Origin: Gammaproteobacteria bacterium
GTDB taxonomy: Bacteria; Pseudomonadota; Gammaproteobacteria; DSM-26407
NCBI GenBank assembly: GCA_028694565.1
Contig: JAQVKR010000028.1
Span: forward strand, 1-12,533
Reading direction: 5' to 3'
DNA: 12,533 bases
Made by a program: the position numbers and the translations under genes. The first letter of the stretch is position 1. Each line of letters opens with the position of its first letter. Under the pieces are notes generated by a model, which worked only from the letters and a program-made list of their open reading frames with translations, searched no databases and was not told where the DNA came from. Below, in pieces: positions 2,494 through 12,533 of the stretch.

Positions 2494-3456
2494 CTAGCGG
2501 GTGGCCGCAGGGGCGTTGCGCAGGAGGTTCGCCACCGCGTCGTGCCCGGCGCGCGCGGCGAGGTCGAGCGCCGTGTGGCCGCTGTGATCCCGGTTTCCGG
2601 TGGGCACGCCGAGGCGCAGCAGCAGTTGCACCGCCTCCAGGTGGCCGTGCCGCGCCGCCTCCATGAGCGGCGTGACGCCGTTCTCGTCGGCCAGTCCCGC
2701 CGGGGCGCCCGCGGCGACCAGGAGTTCCATGACATCGGCGTGGCCGCGGCTGGCGGCCCAGATGAGGGCGCTGGCGCCGTCGTTGTCGAGCAGGGTGGCG
2801 TCGGCGCCGCCCTCGAGGAGGGTGCCGACCACCTCGGGATGGCCGTTCTCCGCCGCCAGGAACAGGGCGGTGGCGCCGTTGTGATCACGGCTGTTGGGTT
2901 CGGCGCGGCCGGCGAGCAGGGCGCGGACCACATCCACGTGCCCCTTGGCGGCGGCCCCCATCAGGGCCGTCTGGCCGTCCTTGTCCCGGGCCCCCGTGTC
3001 GGCACCCATGAAGATGAGCTGCCGGACCAGCAGCTCGTGGCCCTGGCGGGCGGCGATCATCAGCGAATCCCAGCCGGAGCGGGTGCGGTCGTGGACATTG
3101 GCCCCATGGTGCAGGAGCAGGGCGGCCACGCCGGGGTGGTTGAACTCCGCGGAGAAGGTGAGCGCGGTGCAGCCGGCGACGGTGCGGGCGTTGACATCGG
3201 CGCCGCGCCTCACCAGGTAGGCCACCACGCGCACGTTGCCCTCCTCGGCGGCGCGCATCAGCGCGGTCTTGCCGAACCTGTTCTTGCCGTTGATATCGGC
3301 GCCGCGGTCCACCAGGTCGCGCACCTCGTCGATATCGCCGATGAAGGCGGCGTCCCGCAGCGCGATGCCCAGGGGGTCGCCGGATTCCTCCTGGGCCGCG
3401 GCCGCGCCCGGCAGGGCGAGCGCAAGCGCGAGCAGCATGACGTTCCATGATCTCAT
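2494..3456 (-). CDS. exported ankyrin-repeat protein (nine repeats)
   Basis: This 320-residue protein starts with a Sec signal peptide (hydrophobic stretch to about residue 21, AAAA|QEE), so it probably works in the periplasm. The rest is almost entirely nine 33-residue ankyrin repeats, recognisable by G-x-TALMxAAxxGHxxVVxxLLxxGA in each unit. Ankyrin repeats bind proteins; no catalytic domain is visible. The gene starts 24 bases after the tetraheme cytochrome gene and has a GGGAGAAG ribosome-binding site, so the two are probably cotranscribed. That context suggests a scaffold or chaperone for the periplasmic cytochrome or the nearby flavocytochrome c (inference). A small exported ankyrin protein is also known beside catalase genes in some bacteria, but no catalase is seen here. 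Confidence 0.9.
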   Translation of the reverse strand: MRSWNVMLLALALALPGAAAAQEESGDPLGIALRDAAFIGDIDEVRDLVDRGADINGKNRFGKTALMRAAEEGNVRVVAYLVRRGADVNARTVAGCTALTFSAEFNHPGVAALLLHHGANVHDRTRSGWDSLMIAARQGHELLVRQLIFMGADTGARDKDGQTALMGAAAKGHVDVVRALLAGRAEPNSRDHNGATALFLAAENGHPEVVGTLLEGGADATLLDNDGASALIWAASRGHADVMELLVAAGAPAGLADENGVTPLMEAARHGHLEAVQLLLRLGVPTGNRDHSGHTALDLAARAGHDAVANLLRNAPAATR

Positions 3457-3480
3457 GGTCGGACTTCTCCCGTTGGCGGT

Positions 3481-4080
3481 TCAGTTGCCGGCGGCCGCTG
3501 GCTCGTCGGGCTCCAGTGGCTCCTCGTGGGCGATGCCCGTGTGGCAGTCGATGCAGGTCTGACCCTCGTCGAGCGCCTTTTCGTGCTTGCTGCGGGCCGA
3601 GCGCCCCTGGAGGCTGAGATCCATCCGTTCGAAGGCGTGGCAGTTGCGGCACTCGCGCGAGTCGGACGCCTTCATTTTCGCCCACACCCGGGAAGCCATG
3701 TCCCAGCGGTGGGCCTCGTACTTCTCGGGCGTGTCGATGGTGCCGATGATCTCGTGGTAGACGTCCTTCGCCGCGAGGATCTTCGCCTTCATCTTGGGCA
3801 GGAACGGCTTCGGGACATGGCAGTCGGCGCAGCCGACCGTGGCGCCCACCCGGCCGAGGTAGTGGGGGGTCTCCTTGAACTCCTCGTAATTGGTCTGCAT
3901 GGAGTGGCAGGAGACGCAGAACTCGGTCCGGTTGGTGGCTTCCAGTACGGTCATGAAGCCGCCGAGGAACAGCGCCCCGGCCAGGAACGCCAGCAGTGCG
4001 ACGACCAGCAGGCGCTTGCGGGTGAAGGTAATCGTGCGGCGTTTCTCGATCGGGCTGCTGGGTTCAGCCATGTTCTCCAT
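3481..4080 (-). CDS. membrane-anchored tetraheme cytochrome c, NapC/NirT/NrfH family
   Basis: This 199-residue protein has one N-terminal membrane span (about residues 24-46) and four CXXCH heme sites: CVSCH (55-59), CADCH (84-88), CRNCH (144-148) and CIDCH (176-180). Size and layout match the NapC/NirT family, which oxidises membrane quinol and hands electrons to periplasmic enzymes. No nitrate, nitrite or DMSO reductase gene lies beside it. Its neighbours are an exported ankyrin protein downstream and the fccAB operon beyond, so its partner is unknown. An alternative ATG at 4071 has a GGGGAG at better spacing and may be the true start. Symbol withheld because napC, nirT, nrfH and cymA cannot be told apart here. 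Confidence 0.92.
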   Translation of the reverse strand: MENMAEPSSPIEKRRTITFTRKRLLVVALLAFLAGALFLGGFMTVLEATNRTEFCVSCHSMQTNYEEFKETPHYLGRVGATVGCADCHVPKPFLPKMKAKILAAKDVYHEIIGTIDTPEKYEAHRWDMASRVWAKMKASDSRECRNCHAFERMDLSLQGRSARSKHEKALDEGQTCIDCHTGIAHEEPLEPDEPAAAGN

Positions 4081-4279: not shown

Positions 4280-5188
4280 TCAGGTCCGGGCGGATCCGGC
4301 GGTGCCGCTCACGCGCTCATGGTAGCGGGCGCGGTAGAGCAGGCGGGGCGGGTGGCCGGGGAGATCCTCGAAGCCGGCCCGATCGTGGAGCACGTTGTTG
4401 CTCAGCAGCCCCATCCCCGGCTCCAGCCGGGCGCGGAAAATGGCCGGGTGGTCGCCGGCGAGGAGGCGTTCGAGGCAGGCGACGGCCTCGCGCAGCACCG
4501 CCTCACCGCGCCAGCGGATGTTGTGGCGGCGGGCGGTGTAGCGCATGTGGAGCGCCCCCTCCGGGGTGAGGGAGAAGACCGGCCCGGTCACCTCGGCGCG
4601 GGCCACCGCCCCGTTCTCCTCGCGGGCCGGTATGGTCATGGCCTGCGGATGCATCAGCGCCGCGATGTAGGCGGGGTCGCTGTCGCGCAGGTGGATATAG
4701 GCGATTTCCGGGTCCAGCAGGGCGTTCCCGCCGCCCCGGGCGGCGGGGTGCACGCAGTGCAGCAGCAGGCCGCGCACCTGGCGGCCGGGCGGGTTGTAGT
4801 AGCCGTCGGTGTGCCAGCGGATGGGGCGGTTGGTGTAGGGAATGTAGCCCGGCCGCGCACCGGTCCGGCTGACGGCGAGCGGGGTGATGGCGTCCTCGTC
4901 GGCGAGCCAGTTGTGATCGAGGTGGATCAGGCCGAACTGCCGGCCCAGCGCCGCGGGTATGGACTTGTCCGGATCGGCGCCGCAGCGGCTCGCGTAGACG
5001 GCCATGTTGGCCCGGCGGCAGCGTTCCAGCAGGGCGTCGTGCTCCGCGGCGGTGAGGCTGCGCGGATCGCGCACCTCCACCAGCAGCTCCTCCAGCCGGC
5101 CCGGGTGGCCGGCGAGCTTGCGATCGCGCCAGGCGCGGTAGGCGTCCGGCTGTTCGAGATCGAAGGGGTTGGCGGCGTGGGCGTTCAT
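4280..5188 (-). CDS. TauD/TfdA-family Fe(II)/2-oxoglutarate-type dioxygenase
   Basis: The 302-residue protein carries the iron-binding facial triad of the TauD/TfdA family: His126-x-Asp128 in RWHTDGYYNP and the distal His268 in NNVLHDR. Arg-rich PRLLYRARYH (281-290) sits where the 2-oxoglutarate carboxylate is normally held. Length is typical of the family. There is no signal peptide, so it is cytoplasmic. The substrate cannot be read from the sequence; taurine and chlorophenoxyacetate are only the name-giving examples. It is divergent from yhcC-ubiUV and shares a 197-bp gap with an FNR-type box. The ATG at 5188 lacks a strong Shine-Dalgarno. An overlapping long plus-strand frame is rejected because it lacks family motifs. 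Confidence 0.85.
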   Translation of the reverse strand: MNAHAANPFDLEQPDAYRAWRDRKLAGHPGRLEELLVEVRDPRSLTAAEHDALLERCRRANMAVYASRCGADPDKSIPAALGRQFGLIHLDHNWLADEDAITPLAVSRTGARPGYIPYTNRPIRWHTDGYYNPPGRQVRGLLLHCVHPAARGGGNALLDPEIAYIHLRDSDPAYIAALMHPQAMTIPAREENGAVARAEVTGPVFSLTPEGALHMRYTARRHNIRWRGEAVLREAVACLERLLAGDHPAIFRARLEPGMGLLSNNVLHDRAGFEDLPGHPPRLLYRARYHERVSGTAGSART

Positions 5189-5385: not shown

Positions 5386-6345
5386 GTGGCGCTGTCGGAT
5401 CGCGTGCACACCCTGGGTCAGGACCTGCTGCGCCGCTACGGCGAGCGGGTGCACAAGCTCGCCATCAACGCCGGCTTCACCTGCCCCAACCGGGACGGCA
5501 GCAAGGGCCGGGGGGGCTGTACGTTCTGCAACAACGTCTCCTTCAGTCCCAACGCCCGGCAGCGGCCCGCCATCGCCGCCCAGCTGGCGGCGGGACGGGC
5601 GGTGCTGGCGAGGCGCACCGGGGCCCGGCGGTTCATCGCCTACTTCCAGGCCTACACCAACACCTACGACGAGGTGGACCGCCTGGCCCGGCTCTACGGC
5701 GAGGCCCTGGCGGAGCCGGACGTGGTGGGGCTGTCGGTCGGAACCCGGCCCGACTGTGTCCCCGACGCGGTACTCGACCTGCTCGCCGCCTACCAGGCCG
5801 AGGGGCGGGAAGTGTGGCTGGAGCTGGGGCTGCAGTCGGCCTTCGACGAGACCCTGGCGCGGGTGAACCGCGGTCATGGCTTCGCCGAATACCGCCAGGC
5901 GGTGCGGGCCGCGCAGCTGCGCGGCCTGAAGGTCTGCACCCATCTCATCGTGGGGCTGCCGGGCGAGCGCGGCTGGCACGCGCACCAGACCCTGGAGCGG
6001 GTTCTGGAGCTGGGGGTGGACGGGCTCAAGCTCCACCCCCTGCACGTGGTCAGGAACACCCTGCTGGCGCACCAGTGGCGCCGGGGCGGCTACCGGCCGC
6101 TGGCGCTGGAGGAGTACGTCGCCATCGCCGCCGACCTGGTGGAGCGGACCCCGCCGGAGGTGGTCTGGCACCGGCTCACGGGCACCGCCTCGCGGGACAT
6201 TCTCCTGGCCCCCGAATGGTGCGCCCGCAAGTGGGCGGTGCTGAACGCCGTCGAGGCGGAATTGGCCCGGCGCGACAGCCGCCAGGGCGCGGCCCTGGCC
6301 CCGGGGCATGCCCGCCGCGGCGGCCTGGCCCGGGCCGGTAACTGA
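5386..6345 (+). CDS. yhcC: YhcC-family radical SAM protein
   Basis: This 319-residue protein matches the conserved YhcC (TIGR01212-type) radical SAM family, whose substrate is not established to my knowledge. The N-terminal cysteines Cys33, Cys45 and Cys48 (CPNRDG...GGCTFC) would hold the SAM-binding 4Fe-4S cluster. Further family blocks include YFQAYTNTY (about 86-94), SVGTRPDCVPD (about 117-127) and LELGLQSA (about 145-152). The start is a GTG at 5386 with GAGG about 8 bases upstream. A nearby ATG at 5370 is out of frame. The C-terminal 25 residues are low-complexity and Arg/Gly/Ala-rich. Only 26 bases separate it from ubiU, so it is probably the first gene of a yhcC-ubiU-ubiV operon, which hints at a link to anaerobic quinone synthesis. 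Confidence 0.9.
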   Translation: MALSDRVHTLGQDLLRRYGERVHKLAINAGFTCPNRDGSKGRGGCTFCNNVSFSPNARQRPAIAAQLAAGRAVLARRTGARRFIAYFQAYTNTYDEVDRLARLYGEALAEPDVVGLSVGTRPDCVPDAVLDLLAAYQAEGREVWLELGLQSAFDETLARVNRGHGFAEYRQAVRAAQLRGLKVCTHLIVGLPGERGWHAHQTLERVLELGVDGLKLHPLHVVRNTLLAHQWRRGGYRPLALEEYVAIAADLVERTPPEVVWHRLTGTASRDILLAPEWCARKWAVLNAVEAELARRDSRQGAALAPGHARRGGLARAGN

Positions 6346-6371
6346 CATCGCAAGAGGTACGGAACAGGAAC

Positions 6372-7367
6372 ATGGAACTCGTCTGCCCCGCCGGCAATCT
6401 GCCGTCCCTGAAGGTCGCCGTGGACAACGGCGCCGACGCCGTCTACATGGGTTTCCGGGACGATACCAACGCGCGCCATTTCGCCGGGCTGAACTTCACG
6501 CCCGAGAAGATGCACGAGGGCATCCGTTACGCCCGCCAGCGCGGGCGGCGGGTATTCCTGGCCCTGAACACCTTTCCCCAGCCCGGCGGCTGGGAACGCT
6601 GGCGGGCGGCGGTGGATCGGGCCGCCGAGCTCGGCGTCGACGCCCTCATCATCGCCGATCTCGGGGTGCTGGACTACGCCGCCGAGCGCTGGCCCGAGCT
6701 CGCCCGCCACCTCTCCGTGCAGGGCTCGGCCACCAACTACGAGGCGCTGCGCTTCTATCAGCGCCACTTCGGCATCCGCCGGGTGGTGGTGCCGCGGGTG
6801 CTCTCGCTGCCCCAGGTGGCGCACCTGGTGGAAAACAGCCCGGTGGAGGTGGAGGTGTTCGGCTTCGGCAGCCTGTGCGTGATGGTGGAGGGGCGCTGCC
6901 TGCTCTCCTCCTACGCCACCGGCCAGTCGCCCAACACCTACGGCGCCTGCTCGCCGGCCCACGCGGTGGAGTGGCGCGAGATCGGCCAGGGCCTCGAGAC
7001 CCGCCTCGGCGGGGTGCTCATCGAGCGCTACGGGGAGGGCGAGAACGCGGGCTACCCCACCCTCTGCAAGGGCCGTTTCCGGGTCGGCCAGAACACCTTC
7101 CACGCCATCGAGGAGCCCACCAGCCTCAACACCCTGGAACTGCTGCCGCAGCTGGTCGCCGCGGGCGTGGCGGCGGTGAAGATCGAGGGCCGCCAGCGCA
7201 GCCCGGCCTATGTGGCCCAGGTGACGCGGGTCTGGCGCGCCGCCCTGGACGCCTGCGCCCGCGACCCGGAGCGCTACAGCAGCCGTCCCGAGTGGGATGC
7301 CGAGCTGGCGCGGGTGTCCGAGGGCGCGCAGACCACCCTCGGCGCCTACCACCGCCCGTGGCAGTGA
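6372..7367 (+). CDS. ubiU: O2-independent ubiquinone biosynthesis protein UbiU (U32 family)
   Basis: UbiU pairs with UbiV to hydroxylate the ubiquinone ring without oxygen; prephenate is the known hydroxyl donor in Escherichia coli. The 331-residue protein begins MELVCPAGN, typical of the U32 (former peptidase/collagenase) fold. Its 4Fe-4S ligands are Cys169, Cys176, Cys193 and Cys232, the same numbering as in E. coli UbiU. Start ATG 6372 follows an AGGA about 3 bases upstream. It sits 26 bases after yhcC and 120 bases before ubiV; the latter gap holds a long imperfect hairpin. A long minus-strand frame across the gene is a GC-driven shadow. Confidence 0.95.
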   Translation: MELVCPAGNLPSLKVAVDNGADAVYMGFRDDTNARHFAGLNFTPEKMHEGIRYARQRGRRVFLALNTFPQPGGWERWRAAVDRAAELGVDALIIADLGVLDYAAERWPELARHLSVQGSATNYEALRFYQRHFGIRRVVVPRVLSLPQVAHLVENSPVEVEVFGFGSLCVMVEGRCLLSSYATGQSPNTYGACSPAHAVEWREIGQGLETRLGGVLIERYGEGENAGYPTLCKGRFRVGQNTFHAIEEPTSLNTLELLPQLVAAGVAAVKIEGRQRSPAYVAQVTRVWRAALDACARDPERYSSRPEWDAELARVSEGAQTTLGAYHRPWQ

Positions 7368-7377
7368 GGGGTTGCGA

Positions 7378-7435
7378 GTGAGGGGTGAGGAGAGAGGTGT
7401 GAGGGGTTCCTCACGCCTAACGCCTCACTCCTCAC
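7378..7435 (+). repeat. long imperfect stem-loop of GTGAGG/CCTCAC heptamers between ubiU and ubiV
   Basis: The outer arms GTGAGGGGTGAGG (7378-7390) and CCTCACTCCTCAC (7423-7435) pair over 13 bp with one wobble. The inner arms AGGTGTGAGG (7395-7404) and CCTCACGCCT (7409-7418) pair over 10 bp with one wobble. A 4x4 internal loop and a GGTT tetraloop complete the structure. It is built from degenerate TGAGGGG/TGAGGAG units and resembles intergenic filler repeats I associate with gammaproteobacterial genomes. No T-run follows, so it is not a standard terminator; it could tune ubiV expression or mRNA stability. Confidence 0.75.
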
Positions 7436-7487
7436 CGACTCCCACGCTGCCATCGTCACCATCACAACCAACTTCTCCGAGCCTTCC

Positions 7488-8393
7488 ATGAAATCTCCCA
7501 AGCTTTCACTCGGCCCCATCCTCTACTACTGGCCCCGCGAGCAGGTGCTCGACTTCTATGCCGAGGCGGCGGAGTGGCCGGTGGACATCGTCTACCTCGG
7601 CGAGGCGATCTGCTCCAAGCGCCGCCTGGTGCGCACGGAGGACTGGCTGGAGCTGGCGCAGCGGCTGGAGGCGGCCGGCAAGACGGCGGTGCTCTCCACC
7701 CTGACGCTGCTGGAGGCGGAGTCGGAGCTCATCAACCTGCGCCGTATCTGCGCCGACGGCCGGTTCATGGTGGAGGCCAACGATCTGGGCGCGGTGAACC
7801 TGCTCGAGGGCCGGCCGTTCGTCACCGGTCCGTCGGTGAACGTCTACAACCAGCGCACCCTGGCGCGGTTGGCGGCCCTGGGCCTGAAGCGCTGGGTGCT
7901 GCCGGTGGAGCTCTCCCGCGACACCCTGGCGGAGATGCAGGCGGCCCGCCCGGAAGGCGTGGAGACGGAGGTGTTCGCCTGGGGGCGGCTGCCCCTGGCC
8001 TACTCGGCGCGCTGTTTTACCGCCCGGGCCCACAACCTGCCCAAGGACGACTGCCAGTACCGTTGCCTCGACTACCCCGATGGACTGACCCTCTCCACCC
8101 AGGAGGACCAGCGCTTCCTCGCCCTCAACGGCATCCAGACCCAGTCGGCCCAGACCTTCAGCCTCCTGGGGCAGTTGGCCGATTTGCGGCGCCTGGCCGT
8201 GGACGTGCTGCGCATCAGCCCCCAGTCGCGGGGCACCGGGCAGGTGGTGGCCGCCTTCCGGGAGTGCCTGGAGGGGCGGCGCGATCCGGCGCAGGCCGCC
8301 GCCGCGCTGGAGGCGCTGATGCCGGCCGGGCCCTGCGACGGGTACTGGTTCGGGGAGTCGGGGATGGTCGCCCATGGCGGCGGGGCGGCGTAG
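7488..8393 (+). CDS. ubiV: O2-independent ubiquinone biosynthesis protein UbiV (U32 family)
   Basis: UbiV is the partner of UbiU in the anaerobic ring-hydroxylating complex. The 301-residue protein has the four cluster cysteines Cys42, Cys176, Cys189 and Cys193. The 13- and 4-residue steps among the last three are those of E. coli UbiV (Cys180, Cys193, Cys197), so a 4Fe-4S cluster is expected. The start ATG 7488 has no strong Shine-Dalgarno, unlike ubiU. Together with the hairpin just upstream, this suggests translation may be weak or dependent on read-through from ubiU. The last residues are Gly/Ala-rich. A GC-rich hairpin lies downstream (8471-8519). Confidence 0.95.
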   Translation: MKSPKLSLGPILYYWPREQVLDFYAEAAEWPVDIVYLGEAICSKRRLVRTEDWLELAQRLEAAGKTAVLSTLTLLEAESELINLRRICADGRFMVEANDLGAVNLLEGRPFVTGPSVNVYNQRTLARLAALGLKRWVLPVELSRDTLAEMQAARPEGVETEVFAWGRLPLAYSARCFTARAHNLPKDDCQYRCLDYPDGLTLSTQEDQRFLALNGIQTQSAQTFSLLGQLADLRRLAVDVLRISPQSRGTGQVVAAFRECLEGRRDPAQAAAALEALMPAGPCDGYWFGESGMVAHGGGAA

Positions 8394-8470
8394 CGGCGCC
8401 GGCGGGGGACGTGGCGCGGAGCGCGGCCGCGCCGGCAGGGGCGACCGCCGCCAGGCGCGGCGAGCGCGTC

Positions 8471-8519
8471 GGGTGGGCCGGGCCGGCACCGTCGGCTGAC
8501 GGCGCCGGCCCGGCCACCC
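8471..8519. terminator. long GC-rich hairpin between the convergent ubiV and small membrane peptide genes
   Basis: The stem pairs CCGTC/GACGG around a GGCT loop. After one mismatch it continues with an 11-bp perfect arm GCCGGGCCGGC / GCCGGCCCGGC. Past a single bulged G it extends a few pairs more (GGGT / ACCC). It is 77 bases after the ubiV stop and 7 bases after the stop of the convergent small gene. There is no T-run on either strand, so calling it a bidirectional terminator is inference from position and stability. Confidence 0.55.
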
Positions 8520-8526
8520 GGACTGT

Positions 8527-8625
8527 TCAGTGGGCCGTGGAGGCCAGGAACAGGATGTAGCCGGCGTAGAGGACGCCCAGCACGGGGATCATGGGGACGA
8601 TGGGCAGGGATGCGAGCTGCTTCAT
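8527..8625 (-). CDS. 32-residue single-span membrane peptide, function unknown
   Basis: The peptide starts MKQLASLPIV and is almost wholly hydrophobic from residue 8 to 29 (two Pro, two Tyr, no charge after Lys2), ending in STAH. One membrane helix is expected. Reasons to believe it: a good AGGAGAT ribosome-binding site about 6 bases before ATG 8625; a sigma-70-like promoter upstream (8753-8780); and a strong hairpin 7 bases after the stop. The same frame stays open upstream to 8754, but that part is Arg/Pro-rich and lacks a good start. I do not recognise a family. Small subunits of quinol or cytochrome oxidases (CydX, CcoQ types) are of this size, but no specific match is seen. Confidence 0.65.
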   Translation of the reverse strand: MKQLASLPIVPMIPVLGVLYAGYILFLASTAH

Positions 8626-8752
8626 GGCGGATCTCCTGGTTTTCAGTGGTGGGGTTCGGGTCGGTTGCTTGTTATGGGCCCGCCTCTCTCCGGGGGCGGG
8701 CGGCCGCCCCGGCCGTGTCAGTCCCGGCAGGGCGATCCGAAGAAACCCGAAC

Positions 8753-8780
8753 ATCTTACTAGGTTACTGCTCCAGGTCAA
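8753..8780 (-). promoter_or_regulatory. sigma-70-like promoter for the small membrane peptide
   Basis: On the minus strand TTGACC (plus 8775-8780) and TAAGAT (plus 8753-8758) are separated by 16 bp. Transcription would begin near 8746 and leave a leader of about 120 bases. The -35 region also reads TTGAC-N4-AGCAG, a poor FNR half-match that I do not count as a box. The rest of the 8626-8927 gap shows no gene. Confidence 0.5.
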
Positions 8781-8794
8781 TATCCGACTAAAAA

Positions 8795-8810
8795 GCAATA
8801 TTATTATTGC
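8795..8810. repeat. AT-rich inverted repeat upstream of the small-peptide promoter
   Basis: GCAATA-TTAT-TATTGC is a perfect 6-bp inverted repeat in the only strongly AT-rich patch of this GC-rich gap. It is about 15-30 bp upstream of the -35 hexamer, a position suited to an operator or UP element. Confidence 0.4.
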
Positions 8811-8927
8811 GTGAATGCGCTGGTGCGGATAAATGGGGCCAGGCGGGGCTGATCGCCCATCGGCGCGAACGGCCGGGGCTGACGGCGCCTTTGGCCGTCA
8901 CCCGTCAGCAGGGGCGGATGGCCGGTC

Positions 8928-9407
8928 TCAGGCGAGGCGTTCGAACAGGCGGGAGGCGCGATCGAGCGTGCCCATGAGGGGCTGCAGCCGCTCGGGGGGC
9001 TCGTAGGCGTCGAGGAAGTTCTTCACGTAGAGTCCCAGCTCGGTGTCGCCGCCCAGGCGCAGCCGGCGGTTGAAGAACAGGGTGTCCGGATCCTCGCGCC
9101 GACTGGCCAGCAGCAGGAAGTCGTAGGTGTCGCCCTCGATGGTGAGATCGTGGGGGCGGCGCTCGTCGGCCGGGCGCAGCCGGCCCCGCTCGAGGGTGAA
9201 GCAGAGCCGCAGGCGCAGGTCGTTGACCCGGATCCGCACCACCCGCCCGTCCAGGAACTCCAGCTCGCCATCGCGCAGGGCGGTGGCGAAGATCCGGTTC
9301 AGGGCCAGGCACACCGTGGTGCTGTGGGTGGCGGTGGGCACCAGTCCCACCGGAAAGGTGAGCAGGCGCGGCAGGCGCGGCGGCGGTTTACGGGTCTGCA
9401 TGTCCAT
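8928..9407 (-). CDS. ubiT: ubiquinone biosynthesis accessory factor UbiT (SCP2 lipid-binding domain)
   Basis: UbiT is the lipid-binding partner of UbiU-UbiV in anaerobic ubiquinone synthesis. The 159-residue protein has the SCP2-like fold pattern of YhbT/UbiT: an N-terminal segment with the ALNRIFA helix (about 37-43), an ELEFLDGRVVRIRVNDL strand region, then LTIEGDTYDFLLLASRREDPDTLFF and a C-terminal helix ending at Ala159. It is on the opposite strand from ubiUV with a perfect FNR box just upstream. Start: ATG 9407 or ATG 9401; neither has a Shine-Dalgarno. The predicted transcription start (near 9411) would make the mRNA nearly leaderless. A longer minus-strand frame reaching 9821 overlaps the SirB2 gene and is rejected. 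Confidence 0.9.
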   Translation of the reverse strand: MDMQTRKPPPRLPRLLTFPVGLVPTATHSTTVCLALNRIFATALRDGELEFLDGRVVRIRVNDLRLRLCFTLERGRLRPADERRPHDLTIEGDTYDFLLLASRREDPDTLFFNRRLRLGGDTELGLYVKNFLDAYEPPERLQPLMGTLDRASRLFERLA

Positions 9408-9416
9408 AGGCTGGGG

Positions 9417-9460
9417 TTTATGACACGGTGGCATCGGGAAGGCATTGATCCCGATCAATG
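9417..9460 (-). promoter_or_regulatory. perfect FNR/ANR box and class II-type promoter of ubiT
   Basis: CATTGATCCCGATCAATG (9443-9460) contains a perfect TTGAT-N4-ATCAA. A -10-like CATAAA on the minus strand (plus 9417-9422) is centred 32 bp from the box centre, the spacing of FNR-activated class II promoters. The box overlaps the stop codon of the upstream SirB2-family gene (9455-9457). Confidence 0.88.
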
Positions 9461-9844
9461 GATGCCGAGGGGGAAGGGGTCGCGGGTGAGGGCGACGGCC
9501 ACGATGTAGCCGAAGGTGGCCAGGGCGGCCACCCAGGATGCGATCCGGACCCGTCGGCTGCGGCCGCGCCGCAGGGCGATGCTGCCGAGGATGATGTAGG
9601 CCAGCAGTCCGCTCACCTTGGCGGTGAGCCAGCCGTGCACCCCGGGGTACTGGTGGCTCAGCAGCGCCAGGGCGATGGCGCTGGCCAGCAGCAGGGTGTC
9701 CACCACGTGCGGGGCGATGCGTACCCAGCGCCGGTCCAGCAGCGCCGAGCCGCGCATCATCCAGGCCCCGCGCACCACGAACCCCGTCAGGGAGAGGCTG
9801 ACGCAGGTGACGTGCAACCACTTCAGGGCGAGGTAGAGGCTCAT
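9455..9844 (-). CDS. SirB2-family integral membrane protein
   Basis: This 129-residue protein has about four membrane spans and begins MSLYLALKWLHVTCV. With GFVVRGAWM, PHVVDTLLLASAIAL and WLTAKVSGLLAYIILG it matches the SirB2 family, whose biochemical role is unknown. The ATG at 9844 overlaps the TGA of the upstream membrane protein (ATGA), so the two are translationally coupled and belong to the hemerythrin operon. Its stop codon lies inside the ubiT FNR box. A longer frame extending to 10477 is an artefact of GC-rich antisense reading. Confidence 0.82.
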   Translation of the reverse strand: MSLYLALKWLHVTCVSLSLTGFVVRGAWMMRGSALLDRRWVRIAPHVVDTLLLASAIALALLSHQYPGVHGWLTAKVSGLLAYIILGSIALRRGRSRRVRIASWVAALATFGYIVAVALTRDPFPLGIH

Positions 9845-11187
9845 GCCCCTGGGCCCTCGCCGGCGGGCGCGAGCAGCAGCGCCCGGTTCACGCTCCGGTA
9901 GCGCCGGGCGGCCTGCCCCAGCCCGAATCCGAGCAGCCCCCAGGAGGCGGCCAGGGCCAGGCCGGCCGGCCGGCTGGCCAGCGCCGGCCACAGCGGCGCC
10001 AGGGCCAGGAGCCCCAGCCCCGCCACATAGATGCGGAGCTGCCAGCGGGTGGTGCGCTCGGGCAGCAGTTCGCGCAGGTTGGGCACGGCCACGTCCGCCC
10101 GGCCCAGGGCGAGCTGGCGGTTCTGGAGATGGAACCAGGCCAGGAAGGGGACGATCTTGATCATCATGCCGTTGAGGATGGGCACGGCGAAGCCGAGAAG
10201 ATAGCTCCCGCCCAGCCACAGGGGGTAGGCGGGATGGGCGGCGAATCCGGGCCATGCCCGTCCCGCCAGCCACAGCGTCACCGCCGTGCCGAGGCCCGCC
10301 AGGCCCAGGCGCCACCAGGCGAGACCGGCATCGGGCAGAGGCCGCCGCCGCCGCTTCTGCAGCCGCACCGTGAACGCCGCGAACAGCAGCAGGGCGGCGC
10401 CGGCGGTCGCGGCGGCGGACACCGGCCATGCCGGAGGGATCCGCTCCGCCGCGGCCAGCCAGTGGAGCACGCTCCACAGCAGCAGCAGGGCGAACAGGGC
10501 GGCGGTGAGGTGGCGGCGCAGCCGGAGCGGGTACTCAGGCGTGAGCTGGAACATGGGCAGCGCCTGGTAGGCCACGCCCAGCACCAGCAGCCCCACCCAG
10601 CCGAGCAGCCCCCAGGCCAGGTGGACGTCGGTGAGCGAGCGCATGAACAGCAATCCCGGGACTCCGCCCCAGAACAGCGCCAGCCCGATGCCCAGGATGG
10701 CGGTGACGGCCAGCGCGGTGACCGCCAGGCGCATGGCCGCCACGGTGGGATTGGGGTTGTCGGCCCGGCTCAGGCCCCACCCCAGTGCGCCGACGAAGAC
10801 CAGGAACGCGCCGCCCAGCAGGACGGCGGCGGCCAGCGACCAGGAGCCGCCGTCGGCCAGGAAGCCGATGGCCAGCGCCAGCGTGCCGCCGCTCAGCAGC
10901 AGGTGGGTGGTGCGCCCGACGGTCACCGCGCCGAAGACCCGGGTGCCGGCCAGCACCGGGAGCATCTGCAGCAGCGCCCCGCACATGGCCTGGGTCACGA
11001 GGCCGAGGGTGATCAGGTGGGTGAAGGCGAGCACGCCGGGGCTCCAGCGTCCGGTCAGCAGCGCCGGTCCCTGCAGGGTCAGCAGCAGCCCGGCCAGGAC
11101 CCCGAACAGGGGGGCGGAGAGCAGGAACCGGAACGGAACCGAGATGGGTGGCGCCTGATCCAGCGAGAGGTTGCCCGGAAACAGCAT
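9841..11187 (-). CDS. polytopic membrane protein, NnrS / heme-copper-oxidase subunit I-like
   Basis: The 448-residue protein has roughly a dozen membrane helices. Conserved-looking blocks carry intramembrane histidines: FTHLITLGLVTQ (His57), DVHLAWGLLGW (His189) and IKIVPFLAWFHLQ (His353). These blocks are the kind found in NnrS-like and oxidase-subunit-I-like proteins of denitrification and NO-response loci. I cannot tell whether it binds heme or copper. Start ATG 11187 has GAGG about 8 bases upstream. The gene follows DUF2249 by 25 bases and overlaps the SirB2 gene by 4. Context suggests a role in NO or redox stress at the membrane. Confidence 0.75.
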   Translation of the reverse strand: MLFPGNLSLDQAPPISVPFRFLLSAPLFGVLAGLLLTLQGPALLTGRWSPGVLAFTHLITLGLVTQAMCGALLQMLPVLAGTRVFGAVTVGRTTHLLLSGGTLALAIGFLADGGSWSLAAAVLLGGAFLVFVGALGWGLSRADNPNPTVAAMRLAVTALAVTAILGIGLALFWGGVPGLLFMRSLTDVHLAWGLLGWVGLLVLGVAYQALPMFQLTPEYPLRLRRHLTAALFALLLLWSVLHWLAAAERIPPAWPVSAAATAGAALLLFAAFTVRLQKRRRRPLPDAGLAWWRLGLAGLGTAVTLWLAGRAWPGFAAHPAYPLWLGGSYLLGFAVPILNGMMIKIVPFLAWFHLQNRQLALGRADVAVPNLRELLPERTTRWQLRIYVAGLGLLALAPLWPALASRPAGLALAASWGLLGFGLGQAARRYRSVNRALLLAPAGEGPGA

Positions 11188-11212
11188 GCTCGGCCTCGTG
11201 ATTTCCGGCGGA

Positions 11213-11458
11213 TCAGGTGCGTCCGGCGGGCATGGCGTCCTCCGCCAGGCGGTCGCCGTCGCGCCAGATGTAGACCTCGATGCCGTGGGTGCCGCCGGTG
11301 TCCGTATGCCAGCGGAAGCCGGCCTGTTCCAGCAGCGGATAGGCGAGCAGCGGTTCCCGATGCAGCCTGACGTGCAGGAAGTCGCCGGGCCGCACCCCGG
11401 GCAGTTCGCCGAGGATGCGCTCGAGGGGCTCCGGGGGCATCAGTTCGGAGAGATCCAT
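11213..11458 (-). CDS. DUF2249 domain protein
   Basis: This 81-residue protein reads MDLSELMPPEPLERI, then PGDFLHVRLHREPLLAYPLL, then GFRWHTD. That is the typical DUF2249 pattern (PPEPxxRI, REPxxLYPLL, GFxW). The family has a small alpha/beta fold and is recurrently encoded beside hemerythrins and NO-related genes; its activity is unknown. ATG 11458 was chosen over ATG 11470 because GGAAAGG lies just before it and the family usually starts there. It lies between the hemerythrin gene and the large membrane protein in one operon. Confidence 0.85.
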   Translation of the reverse strand: MDLSELMPPEPLERILGELPGVRPGDFLHVRLHREPLLAYPLLEQAGFRWHTDTGGTHGIEVYIWRDGDRLAEDAMPAGRT

Positions 11459-11484
11459 GAACCTTTCCATCGCCGCGCCGCCGC

Positions 11485-11919
11485 TCAGACGGCGCCCATC
11501 TGCGACAGCACCTGCTCCATGCCGTCCTGCAGCGCGCGGTCGGCCATCGGATAGAGCATCTGCTCCTCCTTGGCGTTGTGCTGCTGCATCACGATGAGCA
11601 GGGTCTCGGACAGGCCCAGGTAGCGGTCCCGGTCCCGCGCGGTGATCGCCGTGGCCATCTCCCCGGTGAGCTGGCGCATCTGGCCGTGCTCCATGCGCAT
11701 CACCCGGGTGGGGCCCATGGTCTGCCCGGTGCGGGCCTCGTAGGCGGGGAACATCACCTCCTCCTCCATGCGGAAATGGTGCTCCAGGGCTTCATGGAAA
11801 GCGTTGAAGGCGCTTTCGCCGGTCAGCCAGTCGCCCCGGGCGACGGCGGTTTCGGCCTCGGCGAACAGGGAGTCGCAGCGCTGGTGATCGTCACCCAGGA
11901 CCTGGCTGATGGTGTGCAT
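11485..11919 (-). CDS. hemerythrin HHE-domain protein
   Basis: This 144-residue four-helix protein has the diiron ligand pattern of bacterial hemerythrin-like domains: DDHQRCD (His12), FHEALEHHFRMEEE (His42, His47/48, Glu52), EHGQMRQL (His78) and QQHNAKEEQMLYP (His114, Glu118). Such proteins bind O2 or NO, or protect iron-sulfur clusters. It is first in the operon with DUF2249, the NnrS-like protein and SirB2. ATG 11919 is preceded by GAGG about 8 bases upstream; an alternative TTG at 11925 adds two residues. An FNR-type box lies 65-78 bases upstream of the start. Confidence 0.92.
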   Translation of the reverse strand: MHTISQVLGDDHQRCDSLFAEAETAVARGDWLTGESAFNAFHEALEHHFRMEEEVMFPAYEARTGQTMGPTRVMRMEHGQMRQLTGEMATAITARDRDRYLGLSETLLIVMQQHNAKEEQMLYPMADRALQDGMEQVLSQMGAV

Positions 11920-11955
11920 TGGCAACCTCGTGCGGATTCGAAGGATTGGCCGTCA

Positions 11956-12262: not shown

Positions 12263-12533
12263 ATGAAACTACGCTACGTGGTAATACCCGCCCTCGTGCT
12301 TGCGGCAGGGGTTGCCTGCAGCCCCAGGCATGCGGGGGAGGGTGCGGCCGGCATGGCCGCGCCGGGCACCGGGACGGTCGCGAACACCGGTGTCGGCAAG
12401 GACGGTCCGAACAAGCCCAAGAACGACTACAACATCAGCATCAACTACGAGCTGGGCATGCACTGCACCGGCTTCGACTTCAGCTACTGCTGCGTCCTGC
12501 CGCCGTACAATTCCATCCAGGCCCAGGTCATCA
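12263..12533 (+). CDS. N-terminal part of an unrecognised exported, cysteine-containing protein (cut by window edge)
   Basis: The first 90 codons are visible. An ideal GGAGGAGGGG (12251-12260) stands right before the ATG. The N-terminus (Lys2, Arg4, then a hydrophobic run to GVACSP) is a secretion signal, possibly a lipoprotein signal with Cys19 as the lipidated residue, though Gly at -3 is unusual for a lipobox. A Gly/Ala/Pro-rich linker follows (about 24-53). Then comes a conserved-looking segment, NYELGMHCTGFDF (Cys67), SYCCVLPPYNS (Cys74, Cys75). The paired and nearby cysteines and histidine could bind a metal. No CXXCH is seen in the visible part. I do not recognise the family. Confidence 0.8.
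   Translation, partial: MKLRYVVIPALVLAAGVACSPRHAGEGAAGMAAPGTGTVANTGVGKDGPNKPKNDYNISINYELGMHCTGFDFSYCCVLPPYNSIQAQVI

Follow-up and report, generated by a model that had tools for sequence, protein, structure and literature searches.

The window, that is, the whole stretch of 12,533 nucleotides that was analysed, carries four genes on its minus strand. In the direction of transcription, they encode a tetraheme cytochrome of the NapC/NrfH type (napC hereafter), an ankyrin-repeat protein (ank) and the two subunits of flavocytochrome c, fccA and fccB (Table 1). An earlier note on this DNA had described this order on one strand and had placed the start of ank 24 bases past the cytochrome gene, and both statements were confirmed. 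The other gaps are 380 nt between ank and fccA and 19 nt between the fccA stop and the fccB start. Among related loci, the median spacing was 37 nt for napC-ank (55 loci) and 14 nt for fccA-fccB (45 loci), whereas the ank-fccA distance had a median of 180 nt in 41 other loci and is longer in the window. We found no sigma-70-like promoter and no minus-strand terminator in this long gap, and an Rfam scan of the window gave no match. The note had also reported that no nitrate or nitrite reductase gene adjoins the cluster, and our scan of the window's genes agreed with this.

Table 1. Features of the window with their positions, strands and supporting matches.
Feature	Position	Strand	Match or motif
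Tetraheme NapC/NrfH-superfamily cytochrome c (napC), membrane anchored, 199 aa	3481-4080	minus	Pfam Cytochrom_NNT, E 2e-68
Exported ankyrin-repeat protein (ank), 320 aa, nine repeats, one Cys (C96)	2494-3456	minus	Ank_2, E 1e-82
ank-fccA intergenic gap, 380 nt	2114-2493	minus	
fccA, diheme cytochrome subunit of flavocytochrome c sulfide dehydrogenase	1523-2113	minus	1fcd_C, E 5e-52; two CXXCH
fccB, flavin subunit of flavocytochrome c sulfide dehydrogenase	208-1503	minus	FCSD-flav_bind and FCSD_central; 1fcd_A, E 3e-171
TauD/TfdA-family dioxygenase gene, upstream of napC	4280-5188	minus	
mnmL-like radical SAM gene, ubiU, ubiV; SCP2-domain gene	5386-9428	plus; SCP2-domain gene minus	
Genes for a SirB-domain protein, a membrane protein, a DUF2249 protein and a hemerythrin protein	9455-11925	minus	
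MHC7 (heptaheme protein gene) start, 90 codons, truncated by the window end	12263-12533	plus	

Several other genes surround the cluster. The dioxygenase gene had a match only in the window's genome and in the same-genus genome G084 among the loci scanned. The SCP2-domain gene near ubiU and ubiV is presumably UbiT-like. UbiU, UbiV and the SCP2-domain protein, which we take to be linked to the oxygen-independent ubiquinone pathway, point to this kind of ubiquinone synthesis in the organism. The membrane protein of the following group has no Pfam match and is, we presume, NnrS-like in appearance; this group is possibly a nitric-oxide response group.

The tetraheme cytochrome has CXXCH motifs at residues 55, 84, 144 and 176, the first of which is CXXCHXM, and one N-terminal hydrophobic segment. 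Its Cytochrom_NNT domain, four hemes and N-terminal hydrophobic anchor place it in the NapC/NrfH superfamily. Its scores lay below the curated cutoffs of both TIGR02161 for NapC/NirT (221.9 vs 310.6 bits) and TIGR03153 for NrfH (62 vs 134.2 bits). A maximum-likelihood tree of 82 NapC-type proteins contained one branch of 66 rows with support 97/99; the rows, which include G239 and G056 and leave out G044 and G185, were found through similarity to the window protein, and this biases the sampling but not which neighbours the rows have. An adjoining ank was present in 56 of the 66 rows (39 with ank and fccAB, 14 with ank, 3 with ank and fccA), while 7 had fccAB without ank and 3 had neither. In two of these last three (L061 and L070) the contig ends about 120 nt past napC, and the third (L094) is a long branch whose placement is unsure. 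Outside the branch, 14 of the 16 rows were loci without an ank neighbour, and the two NapC paralogues of the window's genome, which also fall outside, had no ank within short flanks.

The branch is marked by residues F93, P95, A99, K105, D106, W126 and M128. When L094 is counted as outgroup, K100 and D106 occur in all 65 branch rows; they align with positions 82 and 89 of the NrfH chain, the Lys and Asp that we take to form its quinol site. Position 106 is D in the branch and E in 11 of the 15 outgroup rows. The protein thus shares with NapC/NirT and NrfH quinol dehydrogenases the four hemes, the CXXCHXM first heme and the conserved Lys and acidic residue of the quinol site; it differs from them in its separate clade, its scores below both cutoffs, its D106 and the lack of an adjoining reductase gene. 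These comparisons support its assignment to a subfamily of its own within the NapC/NrfH superfamily, with the predicted quinol-site residues kept. In addition, another NapC-type tetraheme gene (L155 in G061), which scores 188 bits against that of the window, immediately precedes an fccAB pair otherwise counted as unlinked, so the link between NapC and FccAB may extend past the close subfamily.

Over their length, FccA and FccB can be aligned with 1fcd, the enzyme of A. vinosum. The FccB searches ran on 208-1497, two codons short of the ATG at 1503. The conserved FccB cysteines align with positions 42, 161 and 337 of the 1fcd chain, presumably the FAD-attachment and redox cysteines. The FCSD flavin-binding and central domains, the three cysteines and the adjoining diheme subunit gene identify a flavocytochrome c sulfide dehydrogenase. 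SQR is a single flavoprotein, and the only SQR model that FccB matched (NF049943) gave 98 bits against a cutoff of 525. The window's enzyme is like A. vinosum FccAB in both subunits, the three aligned cysteines and the two FccA hemes; it is unlike it in being genetically tied to a tetraheme cytochrome of quinone-reactive type and to an ankyrin protein. FccB has a twin-arginine-like leader (NRRDFIK), and so all four products would face or reach the periplasm.

The ankyrin protein begins with a Sec-like signal peptide as judged by eye, and its AlphaFold model (mean pLDDT 94.8) has nine helix pairs, so that both the signal peptide and the nine repeats of the earlier note were borne out. The top Foldseek matches of the model were designed and eukaryotic ankyrin solenoids; as modelled, the protein is therefore a plain protein-binding fold, a rigid solenoid. 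Outside the ankyrin consensus, the conserved surface residues of repeats 2-4 are K63, E71, C96, F101, E104, W129, R137 and position 138, which is Tyr in most rows and Gln in the window. W233 and E266 are conserved as well. The equivalent positions in repeats 5, 6, 8 and 9 are mostly variable, with the exception of E266 in repeat 8. In the 14 loci without fccAB, F101, W129 and D130 are less conserved. When the whole ankyrin protein was used in a homology search, the matches were mainly other repeat proteins, and the search was discarded. Excerpts from one paper (PMC7787665) interpret EGV51005.1, an ankyrin protein of Endoriftia, as possibly involved in host interaction.

We estimated partial correlations of pairwise distances among the four proteins in 37 loci. 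The values were 0.59 for ank-fccB, 0.53 for fccA-fccB, 0.41 for napC-fccA and 0.13 for napC-ank, and they fit, as weak evidence, one assembly of the four proteins. A special NapC-Ank pair was not singled out, since its value was low. Nor did we find any complementarity in net charge between the two proteins (median -9 for ank and -7 for the periplasmic part of NapC).

To describe the conservation of the cluster, we used 85 loci (L033-L117, including six duplicates), of which 65 are NapC loci from a scan of named genomes and 20 are high-scoring loci, taken with longer flanks, from a class sample of 274 genomes, 36 of them with a close NapC. In 41 loci, ank and fccAB are near NapC on the same strand; 14 loci have ank without fccAB, 3 of them (L033, L036 and L064) with less than 1.8 kb of contig downstream, and 3 have ank and only fccA. 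The remainder comprises 9 loci with fccAB without ank, 3 with fccB or fccA only, and 15 with neither. At L038/L103 and L066, fccAB precedes napC rather than following it. Hosts of the four genes include Sedimenticola, Ca. Thiodiazotropha, Halochromatium, Lamprobacter, Ca. Thiosymbion, a Solemya symbiont and one MAG labelled Hyphomicrobiales; the named host genomes of the NapC loci are mostly those of known sulfur oxidisers.

Within the class sample, ank was found in 15 of the 20 loci, 7 of which also have fccAB and 8 of which have none nearby; 4 further loci have fccAB without ank, and 1 has fccA only. Five of the eight genomes with ank and no nearby fccAB carry FccB elsewhere (G097, G009, G272, G154 and G032), and in the other three (G067, G249 and G253) FccB was not detected at E <= 1e-40. 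Ten weaker NapC loci (L023-L032) had no ank within the short flanks covered. FccB was present in 28 of the 36 NapC-positive class genomes compared with 83 of all 274 (p = 3e-10), and the two genes are less than 2 kb apart in 16 of the 36. The association between NapC and FccB exceeds chance.

The family sample consists of 77 genomes around Halochromatium, including the Sedimenticola and Thiodiazotropha genomes G276 and G277. NapC and FccB each had a match in 61 of the 77 and occurred together in 56 (p = 2e-6). For the census, we took 60 of 73 NapC rows, leaving out 5 already covered and 8 weak ones (E 2.7e-62 or worse). These comprise 37 rows with ank and fccAB, 3 with ank and fccA, 14 with ank only, 2 with fccAB only and 4 with neither. 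The four rows with neither are the lowest scoring and have no KDVxHE motif, which is also missing in eight ank loci. At the 48 loci whose contig continues for more than 3.5 kb downstream, ank lies directly downstream of NapC in 44 and fccAB is present in 37 (35 with both, 9 with ank only, 2 with fccAB only, 2 with neither). We searched 16 genomes for ankyrin matches; in 11 of the 12 that matched at E 1e-40 or better, the best match was the gene adjacent to NapC, the exception being G335. No ankyrin match at E <= 1e-25 was found in the NapC-FccAB genomes G239, G044 and G185, and G056 had only a weak match, away from NapC. FccB was not detected at E <= 1e-100 in the NapC-Ank genomes G318, G320, G323 and G332. 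The coordinates of G318 are identical to those of G253, and in G323 the contig ends after napC, ank and fccA.

Confinement to one strain, a possibility raised in the earlier note, is excluded by the 41 loci and the family sample, and these data support a conserved neighbourhood of four genes rather than a one-strain accident. The note had also considered that the cytochrome and ankyrin genes might usually travel without fccAB and with another reductase. In the family sample the pair is mostly accompanied by fccAB (35 of the 44 ank loci with room). At 8 of the 15 class-sample ank loci, five of them in genomes with FccB elsewhere, it has no fccAB nearby. The link to fccAB is thus looser in the class sample than in the family sample. 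No single other reductase replaces fccAB at the NapC-Ank loci, although the heptaheme protein gene MHC7 does so in some. A strict unit of four genes is counted against by the NapC-Ank genomes without FccB (G067, G249, G253, G320 and G332) and by the NapC-FccAB genomes without Ank (G239, G044 and G185).

We tentatively interpret the four genes as coding for a modular periplasmic sulfide:ubiquinone reductase, in which electrons pass from FccAB through the NapC-type cytochrome to ubiquinone and the ankyrin protein is a dedicated partner; we regard this as a serious possibility that falls somewhat short of probable. Sulfide would be oxidised by FccAB, at the FAD of FccB and then through the two FccA hemes. 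The electrons would pass to the membrane tetraheme cytochrome instead of, or besides, soluble cytochrome c, and the cytochrome would reduce ubiquinone at the K100/D106 site. The exported ankyrin protein may bind the electron-transfer pair as a docking, stabilising or assembly factor. The proposed overall reaction is identical to that of SQR, whereas FccB matches FCSD and lies below the SQR model cutoff. This proposal is supported by the co-occurrence of NapC and FccB, the cytochrome subfamily with its adjoining ank, the short spacing, K100 and D106, and the FccB cysteines.

Published work gives further support. According to excerpts from PMC3772326 and PMC3701875, HAO and cM552 form a module in which a quinone reductase of the NapC/NrfH superfamily receives electrons from a periplasmic dehydrogenase; in Nautilia, the same module has been proposed to work in the opposite direction. 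The cluster resembles it in pairing a periplasmic dehydrogenase with a tetraheme protein of this superfamily that would exchange electrons with quinone, as genetic linkage suggests here; it differs in having sulfide for hydroxylamine, flavocytochrome for HAO and an additional ankyrin protein. In excerpts from PMC11267869, four A. vinosum genes rise on pyrite compared with sulfide, with log2 values of 6.18 for Alvin_1092 (FccB), 7.45 for Alvin_1093 (FccA), 4.83 for Alvin_1094 and 5.39 for Alvin_1095. There, Alvin_1094 is listed as uncharacterised, and the text calls Alvin_1095 a '4-heme c-type cytochrome' of unresolved function. We infer that the ankyrin protein corresponds to Alvin_1094 and that Alvin_1095 belongs to the NapC subfamily; the four locus tags run consecutively, in keeping with the gene order of the cluster. 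However, the table of the same paper names Alvin_1095 epoxyqueuosine reductase, which counts against the proposal.

Other observations also weaken it or count against it. They include the class-sample pairs without nearby fccAB, the genomes with NapC-Ank but no detected FccB or with NapC-FccAB but no Ank, and the lack of ank at the ten weaker class-sample loci. The distance correlations, higher for ank-fccB and napC-fccA than for napC-ank, belong here too, although they are weak in both directions. We considered whether NapC-linked FccB forms a special clade and rejected this, since linked and unlinked copies intermix in the tree with 14 label changes. The excerpts from PMC3368242 describe soluble c-type cytochromes as FccAB acceptors in vitro and report that sulfide oxidation in fccAB mutants of A. 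vinosum is as fast as in the wild type. Finally, ImoA had been proposed to act as a quinone reductase, but this NapC/NirT protein oxidised quinol on testing.

The ankyrin protein could instead be a maturation or protection factor for a neighbouring heme protein rather than a docking scaffold. This is compatible with the proposed sulfide:ubiquinone reductase, and we consider it possible but somewhat doubtful. Excerpts from a review describe the ankyrin-containing Cj1386 of Campylobacter, said to be cytoplasmic, as binding heme and passing it to catalase, and according to the title of another paper, optimal KatB activity in P. aeruginosa depends on periplasmic AnkB. Like AnkB-KatB and Cj1386-KatA, the present pair may be an ankyrin protein serving a heme protein, as its adjacency suggests, and it persists where FccB is undetected. 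The neighbours here, however, are an electron-transfer cytochrome and a flavocytochrome, not catalase; K63, E71, C96, E104, W129, R137 and position 138 resemble a protein-binding face; and an adjoining Ank is missing from seven fccAB-linked rows of the NapC subfamily, among them G239, which has no ankyrin match genome-wide at E <= 1e-25.

A rather doubtful alternative is that NapC-Ank is a general quinol:cytochrome c oxidoreductase, which passes electrons from quinol to diheme c4-type carriers, with fccAB a frequent neighbour through shared regulation only. Members of the NapC/NrfH family are mostly quinol oxidases, and ImoA oxidised quinol. A c4-like diheme cytochrome (L053:9819-10643 and relatives) is often encoded near napC-ank, with a member of its protein cluster in 34 of the 85 loci and in 22 of the 48 family loci with room. 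Its gene lies in the fetched stretch of 7 of 9 napC-ank loci without fccAB compared with 15 of 35 with fccAB. The class-sample pairs without nearby fccAB and the retention of the pair in FccB-free genomes agree with this alternative too. Against it, no other neighbour is as frequent as fccAB in the family sample (37 of the 48 loci with room), and the c4-like gene often lies on the other strand.

MHC7, which the earlier note had not mentioned, bears on a further alternative. In the FccB-free class genomes G067, G249 and G253, it encodes about 810-850 residues with seven CXXCH, probably a lipoprotein, 2.3-2.6 kb from napC. The full gene is present in G084 (L120:3749-6190), and contig C449 of the window's genome has a match from residue 75; in this genus, the distance between MHC7 and napC is 8.2 kb. 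The gene was found in 10 of the 274 class genomes and, two weak partial matches left out, in 11 of the 77 family genomes; it is also encoded by Endoriftia (P0142). Six lineages have it in the vicinity of napC-ank, and in seven genomes (G000, G084, G067, G249, G253, G320 and Sedimenticola L074) the distance is no more than about 8 kb. In G332, MHC7 and napC are on different contigs, and 5 of the 10 class genomes with MHC7 have no close NapC. A PpiC-like neighbour was present in 10 of 11 MHC7 neighbourhoods and a TlpA-like one often; both genes lie behind MHC7 in G084. In that genome, genes for a molybdopterin enzyme, a ferredoxin-type subunit and a membrane protein also adjoin MHC7 (L120:8343-11979, minus strand) and presumably resemble SoeABC sulfite dehydrogenase. 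No PDB entry matched MHC7 by sequence at E <= 0.01.

All five NapC-Ank genomes without detected FccB encode MHC7 (G067; G249; G253, the same as G318; G320; and G332), when a sixth, G323, is set aside for its contig end. Among the 57 family NapC-Ank genomes, MHC7 is present in 3 of 4 without FccB compared with 7 of 53 with it (p = 0.015), and among the 16 class genomes (15 fetched and the window's) in 3 of 3 compared with 2 of 13 (p = 0.018); the two samples overlap, and the test was conceived after the first cases had been seen. This distribution suggests MHC7 as a possible alternative redox partner. NapC-Ank might then be an exchangeable cassette that couples the periplasm to quinone, with FccAB as its commonest client and MHC7 as a sulfur-oxidising or electron-delivering stand-in, which we regard as unlikely. 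Reverse flow, in which quinol would reduce FccAB through the NapC-type cytochrome and polysulfide or sulfur would be reduced to sulfide, is very improbable: quinol oxidation has precedent in the family, but the named hosts are, we presume, mostly sulfur oxidisers, and the in vitro activity given for FccAB in excerpted reports is sulfide oxidation with cytochrome c.

A full-text search of open-licence PMC papers gave, in the excerpts of the matches listed, no description of a NapC-ank-fccAB cluster; each part is known, whereas their combination appears to be undescribed. Excerpts from PMC3368242 and PMC11267869 describe what FccAB does in vivo as unresolved, and the recurring link to a cytochrome of quinone-reactive type offers a concrete acceptor for this enzyme. 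If the exchangeable cassette is real, MHC7, with its PpiC-like and often TlpA-like genes, would be a new sulfur-oxidising or electron-delivering enzyme. If the proposed sulfide:ubiquinone reductase is correct, it would provide a second route besides SQR for sulfide electrons into the quinone pool, and it would give exported bacterial ankyrin proteins a role in bioenergetics.
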